39,876 nt of DNA from Flavobacteriaceae bacterium. GTDB lineage: Bacteria > Bacteroidota > Bacteroidia > Flavobacteriales > Flavobacteriaceae. This document shows, one piece after another, positions 1-12,805 of this stretch. Made by a program: the position numbers and the translations under genes. Below the pieces are notes generated by a model, which saw only the letters and a list, made by a program, of their open reading frames with translations, did no database searches and was not told where the DNA came from. The DNA lies in the NCBI GenBank assembly GCA_002690805.1, contig NZFW01000007.1:1-39876 (forward strand). Reading direction: 5' to 3'. Position 1 is the stretch's first letter. Each line of letters begins with the position of its first letter.

Positions 1-1
1 G

Positions 2-91
2 GGGGACAATTGGGAGGACAAAGTGACTGAAAATCATGAACTTTTCAACTTAGTAGATGATGAAATTGAAATTATTTACTCGTCTAAATAG
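2..91 (+). CDS. 3' end of an unidentified gene (partial) or repeat-borne ORF remnant
   Basis: Reading frame 2 is open from the window edge to a TAG at 89-91 and gives about 29 acidic residues ending in EIEIIYSSK; the other two plus frames close quickly. It could be the C-terminus of a protein whose body lies outside the window. The same 28 codons recur at 2206-2292, but there they are preceded by an in-frame TGA at 2194-2196, so that copy is an orphan tail. I do not recognise the protein. A non-coding reading is also possible, because nearly all of this frame lies inside a repeat. Confidence 0.35.
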   Translation, partial: GDNWEDKVTENHELFNLVDDEIEIIYSSK

Positions 92-104
92 TTTCCTTAA
101 ATTC
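4..104 (+). repeat. 101-bp direct repeat, left copy
   Basis: Positions 4-104 match 2205-2305 with two mismatches (T10 against A2211; T98 against C2299). The two copies flank exactly one gene, the lipoprotein at 117-2045. Identity stops abruptly at both ends: position 3 against 2204 and 105 against 2306 differ. Confidence 0.95.
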
Positions 105-116
105 AATCCGGTAATC

Positions 117-2045
117 TTAATCTAAATTTACCTTTATATCATATATTATAGGAAAAATAGTATTGGTATTTTCATCTGACATCTCATTTCTCAAATGCCA
201 ATAGTCAAAGGACATAAATGAACCATAAAAATGGAGACTACCATCCTTCATAAAGGGGTGAAAAACTTCTGGATGAGCATTTATTGCAATTAATTCTTTT
301 GTATTGTATGGTTGAAAAGTTCCTCCTCCATCATTAATTAAAATCATATTGTTTAGTTTAATTCCCTTTGAAATATCATTAGGATCGATATATACTCGGT
401 CACTATAAATTATTCCATTACTATCATCGGTCATTTCCCCAAAACCCAAAACACCATTTGTTGTTAAAACAATATCAATTAAACCATCATTATTCACATC
501 CATTAATTCAAACTCTCGATACTCCATATTATAATCAGTACCTCCTCTATATGTAGAATGAAGTTCATACTCTAAGTTGCCTTTTCCTATCCAGGTTTCA
601 ATAGCGTTTCCTGAAAGTGACTCCCAATTCCTTAGTATATCCAATATTCCATCATTATTTACATCAAATACTCTAATTTTTGTGGTATTTTCTACTAAAT
701 CATCACCTACTGAATCACTTCTCCATGCGATATCATATTTTCCATTTTCAGAATTAAACTTAAAAATATCTAATTTATTTCCACAAGTTTGTTTGAACAA
801 ATCATCTCTAAAATCCTCAACCTTACCATTGGATGAAAAAATAATTTCATCTATTCCATCCCCATTTAAGTCTTCGATTTGATATTCTAATGCATCTCCA
901 CAATAAAAAGGTGAATTTGGGGTAGGATCATTAAAGTTATCCGGGTGTAAATTATATACCTCTGAATTTAGACGAGTATGTGTTGCTCTTCTATATTGAT
1001 TCCCTCCTTCGTTTATAAAAAATGTTAAAGGTGAACCAAAAAAATCTAATCTGTTATCATTATTAATATCCCCTATGGATACTCCATGATAATTACCTAG
1101 ATCATTGTCTGTATCTAATTCATTCCAATTAATTGGACCAGATGTAATTTGACCATACCACATTTTGCCTTTCCAATTACTTTGAGGCCCAATTTCATTA
1201 CCATCTCCAATAACAATAAAATCCTCCGATTTATCATGATTTCTAATATTCCATGATTTAATTTCATTGTTGTATTGATAAAATTCCCAACCTTGGGCAC
1301 CTAATTTTAGAGTATAACCACGACCAGGTTGAACATCAGATGAAGAATTTGGAGAATTATTTACATCATTAAAACTCCCTGTACCTGGAATAAACATATA
1401 ATCCTCTCCACCTGAGTTGTAATGAAGAATTGCTGCTACACTACCATAATTGAAACTAGATTGAACTGACATATTATCTAGGGTGTGACAATCAATACTA
1501 AGTTGTGTTTCTCTAACTTCAAGGTTTGATATTTCAAAAGATGCACTTATACTAATAGATTCTGATACATCTATATCAATTGGATTATCTTCTCCAACAT
1601 AGTCTCCAGTCCAACCAATAAAAATCCATCCATTTGATGGAACTGCAGTTAAACGAACTACACTACCAGAATTATAATCTGTAGACCTACCTGAGGAAAC
1701 TAATGTCTCTGTTATTGATCCTTCTCCTTCAGTAGAAGTTGATAAAGTATAAGTCACTTTATCAAAGGAAGCGGTAATAGTTTGATTTGAGTTCATAGTA
1801 ACTGACAATGGATTGTCAGTAGATCCATTAGACCATCCTGAAAAAACATACTCTGGATTAGCAGTAGCAGTAATAGTAACAACTTTTCCAGACTCATAAG
1901 ATCCTCCAGTAGAGCTAACCGATCCCCCTTCTTCTGATTTAATAGTAAGTGTGTAATTTAGTGTTGGAGGAACTACTTCTTGAGGACTATCTGAAGTACA
2001 ACAGATAAAAGAAATAAAAGTAATAAGACAAAAAAGTTTTTTCAT
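117..2045 (-). CDS. Surface lipoprotein with InlB-type repeats and FG-GAP/VCBS repeats
   Basis: 642 aa. The N-terminus is a lipoprotein signal with a Cys-Cys lipobox (FISFICC, residues ~11-17), so the protein is probably anchored in the outer membrane. Residues ~30-95 and ~98-170 are two copies of a divergent InlB B-repeat-like domain (GGSVSSTGG...YVFSGWSNG and EGSITETL...WIFIGWTGD, each ending near ASF). The C-terminal ~350 residues carry FG-GAP/VCBS-type calcium loops: DINNDNRLD, DLNGDGIDE, DVNNDGILD, DVNNDGLID. Such repeats form beta-propellers used in adhesion or polysaccharide binding; no catalytic motif is visible. The gene stands alone, with no operon partner, between the two 101-bp repeats, which suggests it moves as cargo. 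A possible -7 element (TAATTTTG on the minus strand, 2136-2143) lies about 90 bp upstream. The actual ligand is unknown. Confidence 0.85.
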   Translation of the reverse strand: MKKLFCLITFISFICCTSDSPQEVVPPTLNYTLTIKSEEGGSVSSTGGSYESGKVVTITATANPEYVFSGWSNGSTDNPLSVTMNSNQTITASFDKVTYTLSTSTEGEGSITETLVSSGRSTDYNSGSVVRLTAVPSNGWIFIGWTGDYVGEDNPIDIDVSESISISASFEISNLEVRETQLSIDCHTLDNMSVQSSFNYGSVAAILHYNSGGEDYMFIPGTGSFNDVNNSPNSSSDVQPGRGYTLKLGAQGWEFYQYNNEIKSWNIRNHDKSEDFIVIGDGNEIGPQSNWKGKMWYGQITSGPINWNELDTDNDLGNYHGVSIGDINNDNRLDFFGSPLTFFINEGGNQYRRATHTRLNSEVYNLHPDNFNDPTPNSPFYCGDALEYQIEDLNGDGIDEIIFSSNGKVEDFRDDLFKQTCGNKLDIFKFNSENGKYDIAWRSDSVGDDLVENTTKIRVFDVNNDGILDILRNWESLSGNAIETWIGKGNLEYELHSTYRGGTDYNMEYREFELMDVNNDGLIDIVLTTNGVLGFGEMTDDSNGIIYSDRVYIDPNDISKGIKLNNMILINDGGGTFQPYNTKELIAINAHPEVFHPFMKDGSLHFYGSFMSFDYWHLRNEMSDENTNTIFPIIYDIKVNLD

Positions 2046-2172
2046 TTTATTGTAAATTTAATTATAATTTTTTCCATAAAAATGTTGCGGATAACAGGGT
2101 GTTTCTCACTCGTTTATTTTTACAATTCCAATATACAAAATTAGAACATGTTAAATATTTTTTTTACATATA

Positions 2173-2203
2173 ATACCATCGGTTCGGTATAACTGATGTA
2201 TCC
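2173..2203 (+). repeat. 31-bp direct repeat with hairpin core, copy 1
   Basis: Matches 2394-2424 with one mismatch (G against A in the GATRTATCC part). The first 18 bases contain the inverted arms ATACC/GGTAT around ATCGGTTC. It lies immediately before the right copy of the 101-bp repeat. Confidence 0.9.
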
Positions 2204-2204
2204 A

Positions 2205-2305
2205 GGACAAATGGGAGGACAAAGTGACTGAAAATCATGAACTTTTCAACTTAGTAGATGATGAAATTGAAATTATTTACTCGTCTAAATAGTTTCCTCA
2301 AATTC
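2205..2305 (+). repeat. 101-bp direct repeat, right copy
   Basis: Second copy of positions 4-104. The reading frame that is open in the left copy is cut by a TGA at 2194-2196, so any coding content is an orphan C-terminal tail ending at 2292. Confidence 0.95.
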
Positions 2306-2327
2306 GTAGTGTGAATAATAAATATTT

Positions 2328-2353
2328 AAAAGTGAACACATGTGTTCACTTTT
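2328..2353. terminator. Perfect 26-bp palindrome, possible bidirectional terminator
   Basis: AAAAGTGAACACA at 2328-2340 is followed directly by its exact reverse complement at 2341-2353. As RNA it would form an 11-bp stem with a CATG loop, an A-run before it and a T-run (2350-2354) after it, which is the shape of an intrinsic terminator on both strands. It could equally be a dimeric operator. Confidence 0.5.
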
Positions 2354-2393
2354 TCTATAAACCTCCAACGTTAACTAATTTAAACGCAGATTT

Positions 2394-2424
2394 ATACCAT
2401 CGGTTCGGTATAACTGATATATCC
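2394..2424 (+). repeat. 31-bp direct repeat with hairpin core, copy 2
   Basis: Second copy of 2173-2203, starting 221 bp downstream. Here the hairpin arms extend to 7 bp (TTATACC/GGTATAA). After the shared TATCC, this copy continues through about 30 bp of palindromes before reaching GGACAA, whereas copy 1 reaches GGACAA almost at once. This suggests a deletion in copy 1. Confidence 0.9.
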
Positions 2425-2441
2425 CCCTAAAGGGTACAAAT

Positions 2442-2462
2442 TTGTCCCCCCAAGGGGGACAA
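2442..2462 (+). other. G/C-rich 9-bp hairpin
   Basis: TTGTCCCCC, loop CAA, GGGGGACAA. This is by far the most G/C-rich stem in this AT-rich window. The window's first bases (GGGGGACAA) are identical to its right arm, so the left edge may follow another copy of this hairpin. Confidence 0.8.
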
Positions 2463-2553
2463 GAGATAAAATGAACATTATACAAGTAGTTGGTTTTGAG
2501 TTGATTAACGAAAGAAATTACATTGGTTTGGGTTCCGTCCAGACCGCAAAATC

Positions 2554-2577
2554 ATCCTCCAATTTGGAGGATTTTTT
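2554..2577 (+). terminator. Intrinsic terminator
   Basis: ATCCTCCA at 2554-2561, loop ATT, TGGAGGAT at 2565-2572, then a run of T. Stem, loop and T-tract have the textbook arrangement for the plus strand, although no protein gene runs into it. This supports a short non-coding transcript upstream. Confidence 0.75.
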
Positions 2578-2734
2578 GTTTTTAAGACACTGTCAATCAA
2601 TACTTTAATTTTTTTTCATATTAAATTAAAGTTTGTTATCGAGAATTCTATAATAAATGCTATAAAAAACAATTAAAAGGGTAAGTAAAAAAGATTTCCA
2701 GTTTATTTGTCATCATATTAAATTTAATTAATAA

Positions 2735-2935
2735 TTATTCCTCAAAATAAAATAGATTTTCAATTCTGATATTGAATTGTTTTGAAATTTTCATAGCTAG
2801 CTCAAGTGTAGGTTTATATCTGTATCGCTCAATTGAAATAATTGTTTGTCTACTCACTCCAACATTACTGGCTAATTCTTCTTGAGTTAAACTCTTTTTT
2901 TGCCTGACTTCTTTCAAGTTATTTTTTAAAATCAT
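2735..2935 (-). CDS. Small XRE-family transcriptional regulator
   Basis: 66 aa, almost entirely a Cro/C1-type helix-turn-helix: LTQEELASNVGVSRQTIISIERYRYKPTLELAMKISKQF forms the HTH helices plus the following helices (given here in words: the SRQTIISIE recognition helix and the KPTLELA segment are typical). It resembles the short YozG-like regulators often encoded next to a small membrane protein, as here. It starts 1 bp after the stop of the membrane-protein gene (2937-3416), so the two are co-transcribed. The likely target is the operon's own promoter, where two 17-bp repeats lie (3848-3897); this is inference. Confidence 0.9.
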   Translation of the reverse strand: MILKNNLKEVRQKKSLTQEELASNVGVSRQTIISIERYRYKPTLELAMKISKQFNIRIENLFYFEE

Positions 2936-2936
2936 T

Positions 2937-3416
2937 TTAAACGGTTCTATATAAGTAAAACTGATACAATGACTTTATAATGGATATTAATGCTAGTAGT
3001 ACAAGAATAGAAAAAACAATTCCACCATCTGTTAATTGAAAGCTATTATATAATTCCTGGTTTCCTGTTAGGTTTAATAATTCTTTATTTTGAAGTTTAG
3101 AACATATATATCCAATAATAATGAATAAAGAGAATTCATAGAGTAAATATCCTAATTTATACGATTTTGAATTTATCATATCATCTCTTTCATCTAGATT
3201 TTCTTTTTTTTTAAAAGCAACCTCTAATATAGAATAGGTAATAGAAAAATAGATTACAGTACATATTATAATTTGAAATATTTTTTGAATTAGACCATCC
3301 ATTAAAATCAGAGTTTTTTCTTGATTTTCATAAAAATATGGAAGGAATATTAATGCAAATACAATTGAATATATAATCTCAATTAAAATTGATATTTCTT
3401 TTTTTGATAGTGACAT
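2937..3416 (-). CDS. Small four-helix membrane protein, DUF2178-like
   Basis: 159 aa with about four hydrophobic segments (residues ~10-28, 37-62, 88-110, 130-150). A charged cytoplasmic stretch (KKKENLDERDDMINSKSYK) precedes helix 3; a DERD-type motif followed by a small helix is typical of the DUF2178/DUF3796-like proteins encoded beside YozG-type XRE regulators. The biochemical role is unknown; in other bacteria such pairs are thought of as membrane sensor or anti-regulator plus regulator. The gene lies between the ExbB-like gene (4 bp gap) and the XRE gene (1 bp gap). The family assignment rests on layout and motif only. Confidence 0.7.
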   Translation of the reverse strand: MSLSKKEISILIEIIYSIVFALIFLPYFYENQEKTLILMDGLIQKIFQIIICTVIYFSITYSILEVAFKKKENLDERDDMINSKSYKLGYLLYEFSLFIIIGYICSKLQNKELLNLTGNQELYNSFQLTDGGIVFSILVLLALISIIKSLYQFYLYRTV

Positions 3417-3420
3417 AATT

Positions 3421-3834
3421 TTATTTATGAATAATTCTAAGTATTAGTATTGAAAGTCTAGATACTGAAAAAGTAAAAAGTCCAAATAGCGGGGATAATA
3501 ATGCTACTTTTAAACCTCCTGCTAAAATAGAAGGGTCAGGTGCTCCACTAGCTTCGATCGCGTCAAAAGCACTTATTAACCCTAAAAACGCCCCCATGAC
3601 CCCCAAAGCCAATCCAAGTGTTCCTCCATCACTTATATGTTTTATCATTTTTTTAGAAATTTCAATATTTGTTTTGATGTTTAAAATTGATTTTACTGTA
3701 AAATAAATTGAGGTTAATAAACAGAAAAGTACTAAAGACATAAATAATGCTCCCCCTTCAATAAATCTATTTATCAATGTTGTTCCAATTAATCCTGTAA
3801 TTATTGCCATAATTCTTAATATTTTAAGTTTCAT
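3421..3834 (-). CDS. Stand-alone MotA/TolQ/ExbB-like membrane protein
   Basis: 137 aa from the ATG at 3834. The C-terminal half has the glycine-rich helices of the MotA/TolQ/ExbB proton-channel family (GTLGLALGVMGAFLGLISAF and ILAGGLKVALLSPLFGLFTF). The frame stays open to an ATG at 3918, but that extension would contain the putative promoter and both 17-bp repeats, so I chose the internal start. The protein is short for the family, and no ExbD, TolR, MotB or TonB partner is nearby, so proton-driven energy transduction is not assured. First gene of the three-gene operon with the small membrane protein and the XRE regulator. Confidence 0.75.
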   Translation of the reverse strand: MKLKILRIMAIITGLIGTTLINRFIEGGALFMSLVLFCLLTSIYFTVKSILNIKTNIEISKKMIKHISDGGTLGLALGVMGAFLGLISAFDAIEASGAPDPSILAGGLKVALLSPLFGLFTFSVSRLSILILRIIHK

Positions 3835-3847
3835 ATTATTTATGTAC

Positions 3848-3897
3848 GTTAAGTTAACTTTACAAATATAAATAAAAAATGTTAAGTAAACTGTACA
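3848..3897 (-). promoter_or_regulatory. Promoter with two 17-bp operator-like direct repeats
   Basis: GTTAAGTTAACTTTACA (3848-3864) and GTTAAGTAAACTGTACA (3881-3897) match at 15 of 17 positions and start 33 bp apart, about three helical turns. Between and overlapping them on the minus strand is TATATTTG (3870-3863), a match to the Bacteroidota -7 consensus TAnnTTTG, with TTTA (3890-3887) in roughly the -33 position. Transcription would begin about 20 bp before the ATG at 3834. The repeats are well placed for repression by the XRE protein of the same operon. Confidence 0.55.
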
Positions 3898-3986
3898 TTT
3901 TAGAAAATTACTTTTCAACTATATGAAAATCTTTTTCTTGGAAGAAAATATTTTTAAAATCAATTAATGTTGAATCATCATATTGA

Positions 3987-7978: not shown

Positions 7979-8503
7979 ATGATTAAAAAATGCATTATTC
8001 TATCTATAATTTTTAGCATAACATTTTCTTGTGGTGATAATTTAGGCTCAGTTAAACAAAATAAAGAGACTAAGTTTTATCTTATTCGTCACGCAGAAAA
8101 AGACAGAAGTAATCCAGAAAATAAAAATCCAATTCTTACAAAAAAGGGAATAGAAAGAGCAAATCATTGGGCATCGTATTTTGACAGCATCCCATTAAAT
8201 TCAATATATACAACTAACTTCAATAGAACTAAAGGAACCATAAGACCTGTTTCTGAGTCAAAAGAGATTATCCCAAAAATTTATTCACCTAACAAATTAG
8301 ATTTTAATCAGTTTATTAAAAGCAATAATGGGAAAAGTGTTTTGATTTCAGGCCATAGTAACACTACTCCTTACATGGTTAATAAAATAATAGGTGAAAA
8401 GAGGTTTTCAGATATGCTAGATTCAGATAATAAAAGTTTATTTATTATTAAGATTGTTAATTCTAAATCAACTGTTGAGGTTAGATCAGTTGATTTAGAA
8501 TAA
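7979..8503 (+). CDS. Histidine phosphatase superfamily lipoprotein
   Basis: 174 aa with a lipoprotein signal (IIFSITFSC, Cys18). The catalytic core is present: LIRHAEK carries the phosphorylated His (RHG motif variant RHA) and the second His is in VLISGHSNTTPYM. The Arg of IYTTNFNRTKGT completes the phosphate pocket. The length and the RHAEK form resemble SixA/phosphoglycerate-mutase-like bacterial phosphatases. Because it is exported, it probably dephosphorylates an extracytoplasmic substrate such as a sugar phosphate. Part of the 6257-9485 run. Confidence 0.85.
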   Translation: MIKKCIILSIIFSITFSCGDNLGSVKQNKETKFYLIRHAEKDRSNPENKNPILTKKGIERANHWASYFDSIPLNSIYTTNFNRTKGTIRPVSESKEIIPKIYSPNKLDFNQFIKSNNGKSVLISGHSNTTPYMVNKIIGEKRFSDMLDSDNKSLFIIKIVNSKSTVEVRSVDLE

Positions 8504-8561
8504 TAAATACAAATCATTAAATATGATCACTATATTTAATAAATACCTCAAAAGTTACAAT

Positions 8562-9485
8562 ATGAAAAAAATTAGTTTTCTTTTTTTGTTTTTTTTTATT
8601 GTTAACTGTTCAAGATCAGGGGATCAGTCAGAGCAAGTAATAAATAATGTTCAAATAGATGAATCAATTATCGAGACAAGGGATTGGGGAGAGTTTATTG
8701 ACTACAGAGAAGGAAATATTCCTTTAATGATTATTTCAGTTCATGGTGGAGACAAAGAGCCAGAGTGGATCCAAACAAGAACATGTGATGGTGCTGTTAC
8801 AGTTAGGGACAGCTATACTAGAGATGTTGCTTTAGAAATTGAATCCCAATTAAAAATTAATGGATATAGTCCTTTTATTGTTTTAAATGATCTAAATAGA
8901 AAAAAACTTGATTTAAATAGATCATTAAATAATTCTAATTGTGGAGATCTAACAACTAAACCATATTGGGATCTTTTTCATAAGCAAATAAATGATTTTA
9001 AATCTCAAATTCAACTTGAATTTGGAAGTGGATTAGTTATAGATATTCATGGTCATGGTCATGAAAATCAAAGGATAGAATTAGGTTATCTTTTGTCTGC
9101 ATCTGAACTTAGAATGGATAATAACTCTATTAATGATATTAATGATTCTTCTGTAAAGAGCCTAATTAATAATAATCCAGAAGATTTAAAATTAACTGAT
9201 ATTTTATCGGGTGAATTCTCATTAGGAAATCTTTTGTCACTTAAAGGATATCCTTCTGTGCCTTCAATGAATGATCTTGCTCCAAAAGAAGGAGAGCTTT
9301 ACTTTTCAGGTGGATATAATACGGCAATTTATGGATCTCGTGATTCAGGAAAAGTTGACGCAATTCAGATTGAATTAAATATGATGGGTGTAAGAAATAA
9401 TGAAGAAAATAGAAAATTATTTTCTAAAGAATTTGCTGATGTTCTTATTTCTTATTTAAGAACATTTTACAAAAGTGATATTTAG
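8562..9485 (+). CDS. N-formylglutamate amidohydrolase-like lipoprotein
   Basis: 307 aa from the ATG at 8562; an upstream ATG at 8523 would add 13 residues before the obvious lipoprotein signal (MKKISFLFLFFFIVNCSRSG), so the internal start is preferred. The sequence has the FGase-type metal and substrate motifs: ISVHGGDKEPEW, LNDLNRKKLDLNRS and VIDIHGHGH, with a later PSMNDLAP segment and a C-terminal IQIELNMMG, where a conserved Glu is expected. The family cleaves N-formyl or related N-acyl glutamate and is usually cytoplasmic; the lipid anchor points to an exported variant acting on N-acyl amino acids or other amides. Last gene of the plus run; it faces the alpha/beta hydrolase gene with an 8-bp gap. 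Confidence 0.72.
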   Translation: MKKISFLFLFFFIVNCSRSGDQSEQVINNVQIDESIIETRDWGEFIDYREGNIPLMIISVHGGDKEPEWIQTRTCDGAVTVRDSYTRDVALEIESQLKINGYSPFIVLNDLNRKKLDLNRSLNNSNCGDLTTKPYWDLFHKQINDFKSQIQLEFGSGLVIDIHGHGHENQRIELGYLLSASELRMDNNSINDINDSSVKSLINNNPEDLKLTDILSGEFSLGNLLSLKGYPSVPSMNDLAPKEGELYFSGGYNTAIYGSRDSGKVDAIQIELNMMGVRNNEENRKLFSKEFADVLISYLRTFYKSDI

Positions 9486-9492
9486 ATAATAA

Positions 9493-10452
9493 TTATTCTG
9501 GATATAAATATTTAACTGCATCTTCAGCCATTTGCGATGCGTTATGAGCTACGTTGGGAACTTCTTGAGTTTTCACCCAATTGAAATTTGTCGTATTTTC
9601 ATTTGCAATTTCTTCTGATTTTAAATAAAAATACCTGCCCCTAGCAAGCCTATGAAGACCTTGTTGATTATCCACTATTTCATTATGACGAAGTGATGAA
9701 GCATTTGGATCGTTATCATTTTCTGCCAAATGAATATATAATTTTTTTGAAAAAGCAGTATTTAAAATGTTTGTGTCTATTTCACTTTGATCTAATCCAT
9801 ATGGGAAATTAATTCCAGACTCTGGAACGGTATACCAGCCCGCATTAGAGCAAACGGCAATATTTAACTTGCTACTAGGCATAAATAAAACAAAACGATG
9901 AAGAAATTGACATCCTGCAGAATGTCCCCAGGCATTATAATTCTCTTGAGTTCCAGAAATTTCAGCTTTGATGTATTCAAATAGGGGATCAATCATAGAA
10001 AAAGTCCACTCTTCTGTTGGATTATAAGTTCCAGTACTAGGGTTATCTCCATCATCAAAAACATTACCCAAATTGTACTCATCAGATGAGAAATCAGCTG
10101 ATTCAAATTCAGGAGCAAAAATCATAAAATGGGAGTTATTACTATCCTTTATCCAGTAATCTCTATAATCTATTGCATTTCTTGATGCTCCATGAAATGA
10201 CATTAATACAGGCATTGTTTTGATATCACCATCTGGAATATGATAATAAACATTAATGACTCGATTACTAAAAAACCCATCTGCTGCAAAACGAAAAACA
10301 CCTGTTGAATTAGAAGTTAAAATAGGCCCTATATTATCAATTTGATTAATGGGTGAATTATTTGTTATATTATTATTTGAGTAACCCTCGTTATTATTGC
10401 TTGTACAACAAATAAATAGACAAATAATAGATAAAAACCTTATAAATTTCAT
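9493..10452 (-). CDS. Exported alpha/beta hydrolase (PHB-depolymerase/esterase-like lipoprotein)
   Basis: 319 aa with a lipoprotein signal ending in Cys-Cys (residues ~15-16). The alpha/beta hydrolase core shows the oxyanion segment VLMSFHGASRN, the nucleophile elbow AWGHSAGCQFLHRF (GxSxG with Ser) and a catalytic His in VPNVAHNASQ. Overall it resembles poly(3-hydroxybutyrate) depolymerase/feruloyl-esterase-type enzymes, which cleave ester bonds in exported substrates. Its ATG overlaps the TGA of the SGNH gene (ATGA at 10449-10452), indicating translational coupling in the operon GGT-like, SGNH, alpha/beta hydrolase. Confidence 0.8.
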   Translation of the reverse strand: MKFIRFLSIICLFICCTSNNNEGYSNNNITNNSPINQIDNIGPILTSNSTGVFRFAADGFFSNRVINVYYHIPDGDIKTMPVLMSFHGASRNAIDYRDYWIKDSNNSHFMIFAPEFESADFSSDEYNLGNVFDDGDNPSTGTYNPTEEWTFSMIDPLFEYIKAEISGTQENYNAWGHSAGCQFLHRFVLFMPSSKLNIAVCSNAGWYTVPESGINFPYGLDQSEIDTNILNTAFSKKLYIHLAENDNDPNASSLRHNEIVDNQQGLHRLARGRYFYLKSEEIANENTTNFNWVKTQEVPNVAHNASQMAEDAVKYLYPE

Positions 10453-11207
10453 TTTTTAATATTAAATACAATAGAATCAGCTACTTCTTGACATTTTTCT
10501 GCAACCCCGCCATTAGTCAATATATAATATATTTTTTTTCCATTACTATCTTCTCCAAAGTATCTATATTTCAATCCCTTGGATGATTGATTACTAAGGG
10601 TTGAAAATATAACACATGCTGCCAGGTATGTCCCGTTTGCACTTTGATGCTTTATGTCATCTCCTAACAGTTTATGCTCAGGATATTTAGACCTAAATCT
10701 GTCAAATGCTTTACCAACAAGAAGCAAAACACTCGATTTATTAATTTCAGAATTAATAAGATTATTTTCAATAATATTTTTTTTGAGTAAATCTCTATTT
10801 GGATCATCCATTTTTGGATACATCCATGTAGAATAAAAATATGTTTTTGTGGATGAAGGTATTAAACCTTTAAATTGAGTATAATATTTTTTTGTAGAGT
10901 CAATTGCTATGATTGGATTCATACTATGATCCTGAAATATAATTTTAGAATAAGAATTCTCTTTAATTAATTTTTTAGTTTCAAGATTTTTTTCTCCAAA
11001 CCAATGTTGTTTTAAAGTAGCTCCCCCAGCTGTAGATTGAGTTACATTCCAATTAAGATTTCTCTCGTCTGACATTTTTTGGACAACAGATGGAAGATTC
11101 CAATAAAAAGTAAAACTATTTCCAACAAATAAAATCTCTTCTTTTTCTTGAGAGAAAAGTAGTGTCGTGCAAAAAAAAACAAATAGGTATATAAAATTTC
11201 TTAGCAT
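10449..11207 (-). CDS. SGNH-fold hydrolase, DUF4886-like, secreted
   Basis: 252 aa from the ATG at 11207, followed by a signal peptide (MLRNFIYLFVFFCTTLLFSQ). The frame extends to 11264, but that adds residues inside the upstream gene and before the signal, so it is rejected. Block I is FVGNSFTFYWNLP (GNSF in place of GDS), the block III region is FQDHSMNP, and the C-terminal catalytic pair is in GDDIKHQSANGTYLAACVIF. These are the hallmarks of the DUF4886 branch of SGNH esterases. The probable role is removal of acyl groups from glycans or peptides. Both ends overlap neighbours: TTATG-type with the GGT-like gene and ATGA with the hydrolase gene. Confidence 0.8.
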   Translation of the reverse strand: MLRNFIYLFVFFCTTLLFSQEKEEILFVGNSFTFYWNLPSVVQKMSDERNLNWNVTQSTAGGATLKQHWFGEKNLETKKLIKENSYSKIIFQDHSMNPIIAIDSTKKYYTQFKGLIPSSTKTYFYSTWMYPKMDDPNRDLLKKNIIENNLINSEINKSSVLLLVGKAFDRFRSKYPEHKLLGDDIKHQSANGTYLAACVIFSTLSNQSSKGLKYRYFGEDSNGKKIYYILTNGGVAEKCQEVADSIVFNIKK

Positions 11208-12805
11208 TATTTCTCGTTTATTTTGGTTGTTCCCTCCCAGTCTGGATCTGCAGCTCCTATCCATTTATTATTTATTGAATCAATTGCAACAGCATGAACT
11301 CTCCCAAAACGAGCAATTTCATCAATCATTTTATATGGATTTGTAATTATATTAAGCTCAGCATTAAGTTCTTTTACACCAGAATGATCTTCTATCCACA
11401 AACTATCCTCAAAAGGATAAACCCTGGGAAGCATAAGAGATTTTTCTAAGGTATTATTTTGATCAATATATCTACTTGCTACTTGAGTTACAGCAGTTAT
11501 AATTCGACTTCCTCCAGCTGCCCCAAGAGCTAATACAGGGTTATTATTTTTAGAAATTAGTGTTGGGGAGATATGTGAATTTGCTCTATCTCCAGGCTTG
11601 TAATCACCTAAGTATCCTCCTAAAGTTACAGCGTATATAAATCCAAGCCCTTTAGTAGCAACTTTTGACCCCATATTAGGGCCAACAGTTTGAGTTAAGC
11701 TTACTATATTTCCATCTCTATCTGCAGTCGTTAAATGAGTAGTATGTCCAATTGTAGCAACCCATGATTCTGGTAAATTATCATTATCAAAATTAAATGT
11801 AACCTCTTTTTTAAGAATGTTATTAGCTAAAATCTTTGCTCGATCGTAAGATAAAATTAATTTTAAAGAGTCTTTATTTTTTTGATATTTTCTACTTCTA
11901 TAAGCTATCTCTGTTGCCTTACCGATGTTAATTGCCCATTCTTCCTCAGATTTTGCTGTAGGTAAATTATCTAGGATTTGTAAAATTTGAATTGTAATTG
12001 CACCATATGATGGTAAGTAAAGAGAGTTAATAGTATGATTTCGATATTTACCTTGAACTACTTTTGATTTTAAAGCTTTGTAGTTTTTCAAATCCTCCAA
12101 AGTTAAAATCCCTCCATGTTTTTGTATATCAGAAACTATCTTTTGAGCTATTTCTCCCTCATAAAAACCCTTGTGACCTTCATTAGCTATTTTTTCTAAA
12201 ACCAAAGAAAGATCTTTTTGAATAACAAGGTCTCCAGCTATATAAGACATACCTTCTGATTTTAAAAAATGATAACTAGTTCCTTCGAACTCATTAATTT
12301 TCTCAAAGGCCATTTTTTGTCTTATTGCTTCTCCTGGAAGAATTAAAAACCCTTCTTTTGCATATTTAATTGCTGGGGCAAGAACTTCTTTAAGGGAAAG
12401 ATTGCCATTTTCTTTCTGTAATTTTACCAATCCTGCAACAACTCCAGGAATGCCAATAGTTTGATAACCATAAGAGAATTTATCTTTTAAAGGTTTATAA
12501 TTTAATGGAACTTCTGTAGAAGCATCTATACCTGAAATTATTCCATCTTGAGTTTGATATATTGATTGCAGTCTACCTCCAATTCCACTCATGCTTGGTT
12601 CAACTACAGCTAAACTAAATGCAGCTGCTACTGCAGCATCGAATGCATTTCCTCCAATTTCGTATATATTTTTTCCAGCAATTGAAGCTAAAGGATGAGC
12701 AGAAGAAATTATATCATTTGAATATTTATTTGGACTATTATCACATCCTGACAATATCGTAATTGAGAAAATTAATATTGTAAGTCTTTTGATTCTTATG
12801 TTCAT
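11207..12805 (-). CDS. Gamma-glutamyltransferase-fold Ntn hydrolase (atypical) lipoprotein
   Basis: 532 aa, somewhat shorter than E. coli GGT (~580), with lipobox ITILSGC (Cys21). The family skeleton is clear: GGNAFDAAVAAAFSLAVVEP, SGIGGR and the autoprocessing site TIGHTTHLTTAD, where Thr355 would become the N-terminal nucleophile of the small subunit; GAAGGSRI supplies the oxyanion glycines. However, residues that hold the glutamyl moiety in E. coli GGT are not where expected: the FRE segment (Arg114) is DAST, the LLNN segment reads IYAVTLGG, and LSSM reads NSHI. The fold and self-cleavage are likely, but a true gamma-glutamyl substrate is doubtful. First gene of the operon that continues with the SGNH and alpha/beta hydrolases; it begins just after the terminator of the SusCD operon. 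Confidence 0.82.
   Translation of the reverse strand: MNIRIKRLTILIFSITILSGCDNSPNKYSNDIISSAHPLASIAGKNIYEIGGNAFDAAVAAAFSLAVVEPSMSGIGGRLQSIYQTQDGIISGIDASTEVPLNYKPLKDKFSYGYQTIGIPGVVAGLVKLQKENGNLSLKEVLAPAIKYAKEGFLILPGEAIRQKMAFEKINEFEGTSYHFLKSEGMSYIAGDLVIQKDLSLVLEKIANEGHKGFYEGEIAQKIVSDIQKHGGILTLEDLKNYKALKSKVVQGKYRNHTINSLYLPSYGAITIQILQILDNLPTAKSEEEWAINIGKATEIAYRSRKYQKNKDSLKLILSYDRAKILANNILKKEVTFNFDNDNLPESWVATIGHTTHLTTADRDGNIVSLTQTVGPNMGSKVATKGLGFIYAVTLGGYLGDYKPGDRANSHISPTLISKNNNPVLALGAAGGSRIITAVTQVASRYIDQNNTLEKSLMLPRVYPFEDSLWIEDHSGVKELNAELNIITNPYKMIDEIARFGRVHAVAIDSINNKWIGAADPDWEGTTKINEK

Follow-up and report, generated by a model that had tools for sequence, protein, structure and literature searches.

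Repeats and coding content at the left end of the contig

The window, i.e. the whole 39,876-nt stretch analysed here from a Flavobacteriaceae bacterium, is the complete contig C26 of the genome bin G000, and the left copy of its most conspicuous direct repeat therefore begins 3 nt from a contig end. The features at issue are the following.

4..104, plus strand: R1, left copy of a 101-bp direct repeat (99/101 against R2), 3 nt off the contig end
117..2045, minus strand: putative cargo gene for a 642-aa surface lipoprotein with InlB B-repeats and FG-GAP repeats (Pfam PF18998, PF13517)
2173..2203, plus strand: 31-bp repeat, copy A (30/31 against copy B), 1 nt from R2
2205..2305, plus strand: R2, right copy of the 101-bp direct repeat (99/101 against R1)
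2328..2353, no strand: perfect 26-bp palindrome, terminator-like on both strands (folding; minus-strand self-match)
2394..2424, plus strand: 31-bp repeat, copy B (30/31 against copy A)
2442..2462, no strand: palindrome TTGTCCCCC-CAA-GGGGGACAA, whose right arm is the same as the contig's first nine bases (pattern search)
2525..2547, plus strand: orphan 3′ end of tRNA-Asp(GTC), an attR-type insertion scar and probable right border (CCGTCCAGACCGC is identical to the intact tRNA-Asp 3′ end in relatives; shuffled-pattern control)
2548..2607, plus strand: sequence that originally followed tRNA-Asp, terminator included (hairpin at 2554-2572, T run; likeness to genome G104)
2735..3918, minus strand: XRE-type HTH protein, 159-aa protein and ExbB-like protein, the right neighbours of the scar (Pfam; comparison with contig C7 of genome G004)

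The sole gene between R1 and R2 encodes the 642-aa lipoprotein (InlB B-repeat, E 5.9e-26; FG-GAP, E 3.5e-8), as the first-pass annotation had stated. Residues 1-193, comprising the signal and the InlB B-repeats, recur in other proteins of the genus, and for the remaining C-terminal part the search detected no relatives. This N-terminal InlB module of ~190 aa is common to many otherwise unrelated surface proteins of the genus (L073, L074, L075, L076), several of which sit at contig ends.

R1 and R2 align ungapped with just two mismatches, T10/A2211 and T98/C2299, the count given earlier, and share an identical core of 87 nt (11-97). They form the best direct repeat of the window, wherein the other repeats of at least 30 nt reach 71-79%, except for one 31-bp pair. 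This pair, which had been overlooked together with the tRNA-Asp 3′ end and the fact that the window is a whole contig, brackets R2 and carries a hairpin TTATACC...GGTATAA. Both repeats were considered as dispersed elements and rejected as such: the bin holds only two copies of the 101-bp repeat (R) by BLAST, the next matches being chance (E 0.06 or worse), and R is absent from the 198 relatives searched and from the collections covered by exact scans; the 31-bp repeat likewise has only two copies in the genome and none in 296 relatives at up to 3 mismatches.

The reading frame in R1 is open for 29 codons from the contig edge to a TAG at 89-91, and R2 carries the same codons preceded by an in-frame TGA at 2194-2196, in agreement with the first-pass annotation, which took the frame as the protein-coding replacement tail of a target gene. 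However, R matches no gene tail: queried as a protein tail, it gave nothing above the cut-off in Pfam, PDB, NCBIfam, PHROGs and phages, and plasmids yielded only E values of 7-9. An ACC-deaminase-like match in G004 was rejected as chance, because the orthologue of the window genome itself scores lower. The R1 frame ranks at the 22nd percentile of real genes in codon score, 18% of spurious open frames score higher, and the open frame is thus weak evidence for a gene.

The tRNA-Asp scar and its counterparts in relatives

The scar corresponds to the last 23 nt of the tRNA and matches it at 19 of 23 positions; the final 13 (2535-2547) are exact, and all four mismatches lie in the tRNA part left of CCGTCC. 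The tRNA-end 13-mer had 63 matches with at most one mismatch in 578 kb, where shuffled 13-mers averaged 0.08; most of the 63 lie in intact tRNAs. The original flank can also be observed directly: the tRNA end and flank together are 86% identical over 83 nt to the intact tRNA-Asp flank in G104, in which the order dnaE-trxA-tRNA-Asp is uninterrupted and followed by the terminator, and 2525-2607 is conserved across many related genomes. An empty site would join an intact tRNA-Asp straight to AAAATCATCCTCC. Positions 2525-2587 had also been considered as an RNA leader on a weak, sub-threshold match to Rfam Phe_leader, which was dropped upon recognising tRNA-Asp.

A partial tRNA 3′ end followed by the original flank is what insertion into a tRNA 3′ end classically leaves behind. 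Since the tRNA-Asp 3′ end is here followed by the terminator of the intact gene, everything left of 2547 is probably insertion. The earlier idea of an element that enters at the 3′ end of a gene and duplicates its tail thus fits, but the gene is most likely tRNA-Asp and the tail is 2525-2547, not the 101-bp repeats; borders at 4 and 2305 are not supported, and the likely right border is the scar.

A full-length tRNA-Asp has no match in the window or in its 74%-complete bin. Contig C34 of the same bin begins inside dnaE and continues as in G004, which is the order expected of the left flank, and dnaE, trxA and tRNA-Asp are therefore expected in the gap to the left of position 1. The insert seen here may be a fragment of a larger island with its left border beyond the contig end. 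An excised form or an empty site in the same species was not seen; in G104, tRNA-Asp and its terminator are uninterrupted, and the single copy of R that the first-pass annotation had proposed to look for at empty sites was not found in the relatives searched.

Gene content, namely a SusC/SusD-type pair and an order of genes shared with relatives, points to a flavobacterial lineage for the window genome. Scars of the tRNA-Asp type are present in seven genomes. In contig C7 of G004, a close relative, an intact tRNA-Asp follows trxA; three genes come next, two from the beta-lactamase fold family and one for a TPR protein, and an orphan tRNA-Asp end separates them from the HTH and 159-aa genes that also adjoin the scar in the window. 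The other cargo that the first-pass annotation had anticipated is therefore found at tRNA-Asp, in front of the same right neighbours, but none between copies of R. Contig C32 of G004 carries two further orphan ends at a distance of 3.3 kb; other genes come next, and after these orthologues of window 7979-12805. Orphan ends also occur in G002, G113, G118, G031 (two) and G032. An intact tRNA-Asp is present at the near end in G004, G113, G031 and G032, and the five orphan ends with an intact tRNA-Asp in the same stretch are all located downstream of that gene and in its orientation.

The units at these sites differ in size and repeats. In G113, an exact 59-bp repeat of tRNA end and terminator flanks two genes, one with a Fic domain and one of 636 aa; the unit at tRNA-Asp in G032 measures 9.1 kb; and in the single-contig genome G031, three repeats of 122-138 bp (92-98% identical), which begin inside the tRNA, surround two tandem units of about 2.35 and 5.7 kb. 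G031 (L257) offers a clean model for a tandem array after tRNA-Asp. The neighbours of the orphan 3′ end in G118 (L233:10529-18895) are defence genes, namely type I restriction genes and one for a DrmA-like protein. The block of HTH, 159-aa and ExbB-like genes keeps its order in differing surroundings in G000, G004 and G001 (L067:1-463; L068:7327-8388).

Assemblies break at this position. The contigs of G001, G002 and G006, three of the six other genomes of the genus, end less than 100 bp past tRNA-Asp. Among the tRNA-Asp matches listed for 149 relatives, nine have a contig start no more than ~210 bp away on the downstream side, compared with two on the upstream side, in a tally made by hand from a listing that gives contig starts, not contig ends.

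Origin of the 101-bp repeats

At 25 of 31 positions, the start of R agrees with the terminal sequence of a G001 contig, ~58 nt past tRNA-Asp and just beyond its terminator. This likeness, which spans 31 nt at a contig end, is the sole outside resemblance to the start of R in 1.3 Mb of DNA compared. It points to R being the tRNA-proximal end of elements at the tRNA-Asp site and to R1 lying near the missing tRNA. Immediately before R2 there is the 31-bp repeat and no tRNA fragment, and therefore R is not simply a duplicated attachment site. The 101-bp repeats are probably pieces inside the inserted block and not its borders.

The first-pass annotation had regarded R1, the lipoprotein gene and R2 as a self-contained 2.1-kb mobile unit, in which R would serve as attachment site or represent a protein gene's 3′ tail. 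A near-perfect repeat pair around exactly one gene, the position of R1 within a frame open from the contig edge, and the small unit of G031 bracketed by repeats of 122-138 bp would all agree with such an element. However, the failure to match any gene tail speaks against it, the repeats of G031 begin inside the tRNA and R does not, and neither a single copy of R, as would be expected at empty sites, nor R bracketing other cargo was found in the 198 relatives or the exact scans, the 31-nt resemblance in G001 being all that turned up. We therefore consider this explanation improbable.

Alternatively, R1 and R2 could reflect local duplication or gene conversion in a variable intergenic region, involving neither an element end nor a site-specific event. 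That just two copies of R exist, and that a second short pair of 31 bp nearby shows the region to duplicate easily, is in keeping with this possibility, which we rate as a minor but serious one; the resemblance of the start of R to DNA beside tRNA-Asp of another species and the nearby tRNA scar instead link the repeats with insertion at this site. As to the history of the pair, a local duplication is compatible with the data, and so are two insertions with a subsequent partial deletion.

It was also considered that R1 is an assembly artefact at the contig end, caused by a chimeric read or a strain mixture. Overlaps of exactly 99 bp occur between several contig ends of this assembly, which was therefore built with k near 99, so that R1, 3 nt from the contig end, lies almost wholly inside the terminal k-mer. 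However, the 87 identical nucleotides fall short of k, R1 and R2 disagree at two sites and their flanks share nothing; therefore a simple k-mer misjoin cannot account for the 104/105 junction. The scar of tRNA-Asp at 2525-2547 is moreover independent of R1, and we consider an artefact very improbable, although a chimeric read at the contig end is conceivable. Separately, contig C38 of G000 (L148, L187) was noted: it has 9.6 kb and is probably circular because its ends overlap by 99 bp, and besides a phage-type DNA methyltransferase its products are mostly small and membrane proteins with no match. A plasmid, a small virus and a contaminant are all possible identities.

A probable tRNA-anchored island and its relation to known systems

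No tyrosine recombinase is encoded in window 1-2547, which bears out the first-pass statement that no integrase lies inside, and none was found near tRNA-Asp in the stretches of relatives examined; the incomplete bin of the window genome encodes only XerD and a XerC-like protein. An integron gene cassette was considered and rejected: neither sequence nor folding revealed attC-like boxes, and the tyrosine recombinases of the incomplete bin are those two proteins, with no IntI among them. Integrase, conjugation or phage genes, as of an ICE or prophage, are not present in the visible insert, which contains only the lipoprotein gene. Short direct repeats after the tRNA reach at least 10/11 matches at 5 of 60 sites versus 1.8% of random stretches, a modest enrichment that hints at integrase arm sites.

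Based on these findings, we propose that the lipoprotein gene is probably cargo of DNA inserted at the 3′ end of tRNA-Asp, in an additive, tRNA-anchored flexible genomic island; this reading draws on sequence comparison, and the mobility of the insert is what we infer from it. First, site-specific recombination would insert DNA into the tRNA-Asp that follows dnaE-trxA, at its 3′ end, and the insertion would have left the original tRNA 3′ end and terminator at 2525-2607, with an intact tRNA expected just left of the contig end. Upon reuse of the site, every insertion would leave a partial tRNA-Asp direct repeat, and units of one to few genes would thereby accumulate and differ between species. 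Because the part of the insert inside the window has no recombinase gene, integration was probably performed by an enzyme that acted in trans or has since been lost. The 101-bp repeats would most likely be two copies of the tRNA-proximal end of such elements, arising from successive insertions or rearrangement, and recombination between R1 and R2 could delete the lipoprotein gene.

Flexible genomic islands have been defined previously (PMC5217437), and additive ones with cassettes at tRNA genes are known as fGI-2 of Methylophilaceae (PMC10872708) and fGI1 of Ca. Actinomarinales (PMC7771536). The locus is a further example of this known type, with a partial tRNA repeat at its far end and, in relatives, both different cargo at the same site and an uninterrupted site. 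It resembles fGI-2 and fGI1 in the insertion beside a tRNA gene, in the recurring direct repeats of the tRNA end, which in fGI-2 are the last 20 nt of tRNA-Lys (PMC10872708), in units of one to many genes and in cargo that differs between close relatives. It differs from both in the host lineage, in the use of tRNA-Asp after dnaE-trxA, in the internal 101-bp repeat pair and in the 122-138 bp repeats of G031. The tycheposons of Prochlorococcus, also reported in Methylophilaceae, are likewise tRNA-anchored and cargo-carrying, but are described as spanning 4-200 kb and carrying their own tyrosine recombinase (PMC10872708), whereas window 1-2547, the visible part of the insert, measures ~2.5 kb and has none. 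ICEEaIII and ICECspPOL2 of Flavobacteriia are ICEs at tRNA genes, with tRNA-Asp-GTC among the reported targets (PMC8694125), and share the insertion at a tRNA 3′ end with a short direct repeat; however, they carry integrase and conjugation genes, and the stretch here has none. A search covering part of the literature found no published description of the tRNA-Asp site after dnaE-trxA.

In conclusion, under the island reading a variable surface protein is assigned to a defined site of gene exchange in an uncultured bacterium with a small genome, and the landmark of tRNA-Asp after dnaE-trxA lets the same site be read in relatives. Insertion at this tRNA-Asp may explain the assembly breaks there, and the question is raised which recombinase moves units that carry none. 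It is conceivable, although we hold it to be unlikely, that tRNA-Asp after dnaE-trxA is a cassette port widespread in the family, receiving recombinase-free units of one to few genes with repeats of 60-140 bp that are moved by an enzyme acting in trans. If so, surface proteins and defence genes would be swapped one unit at a time.
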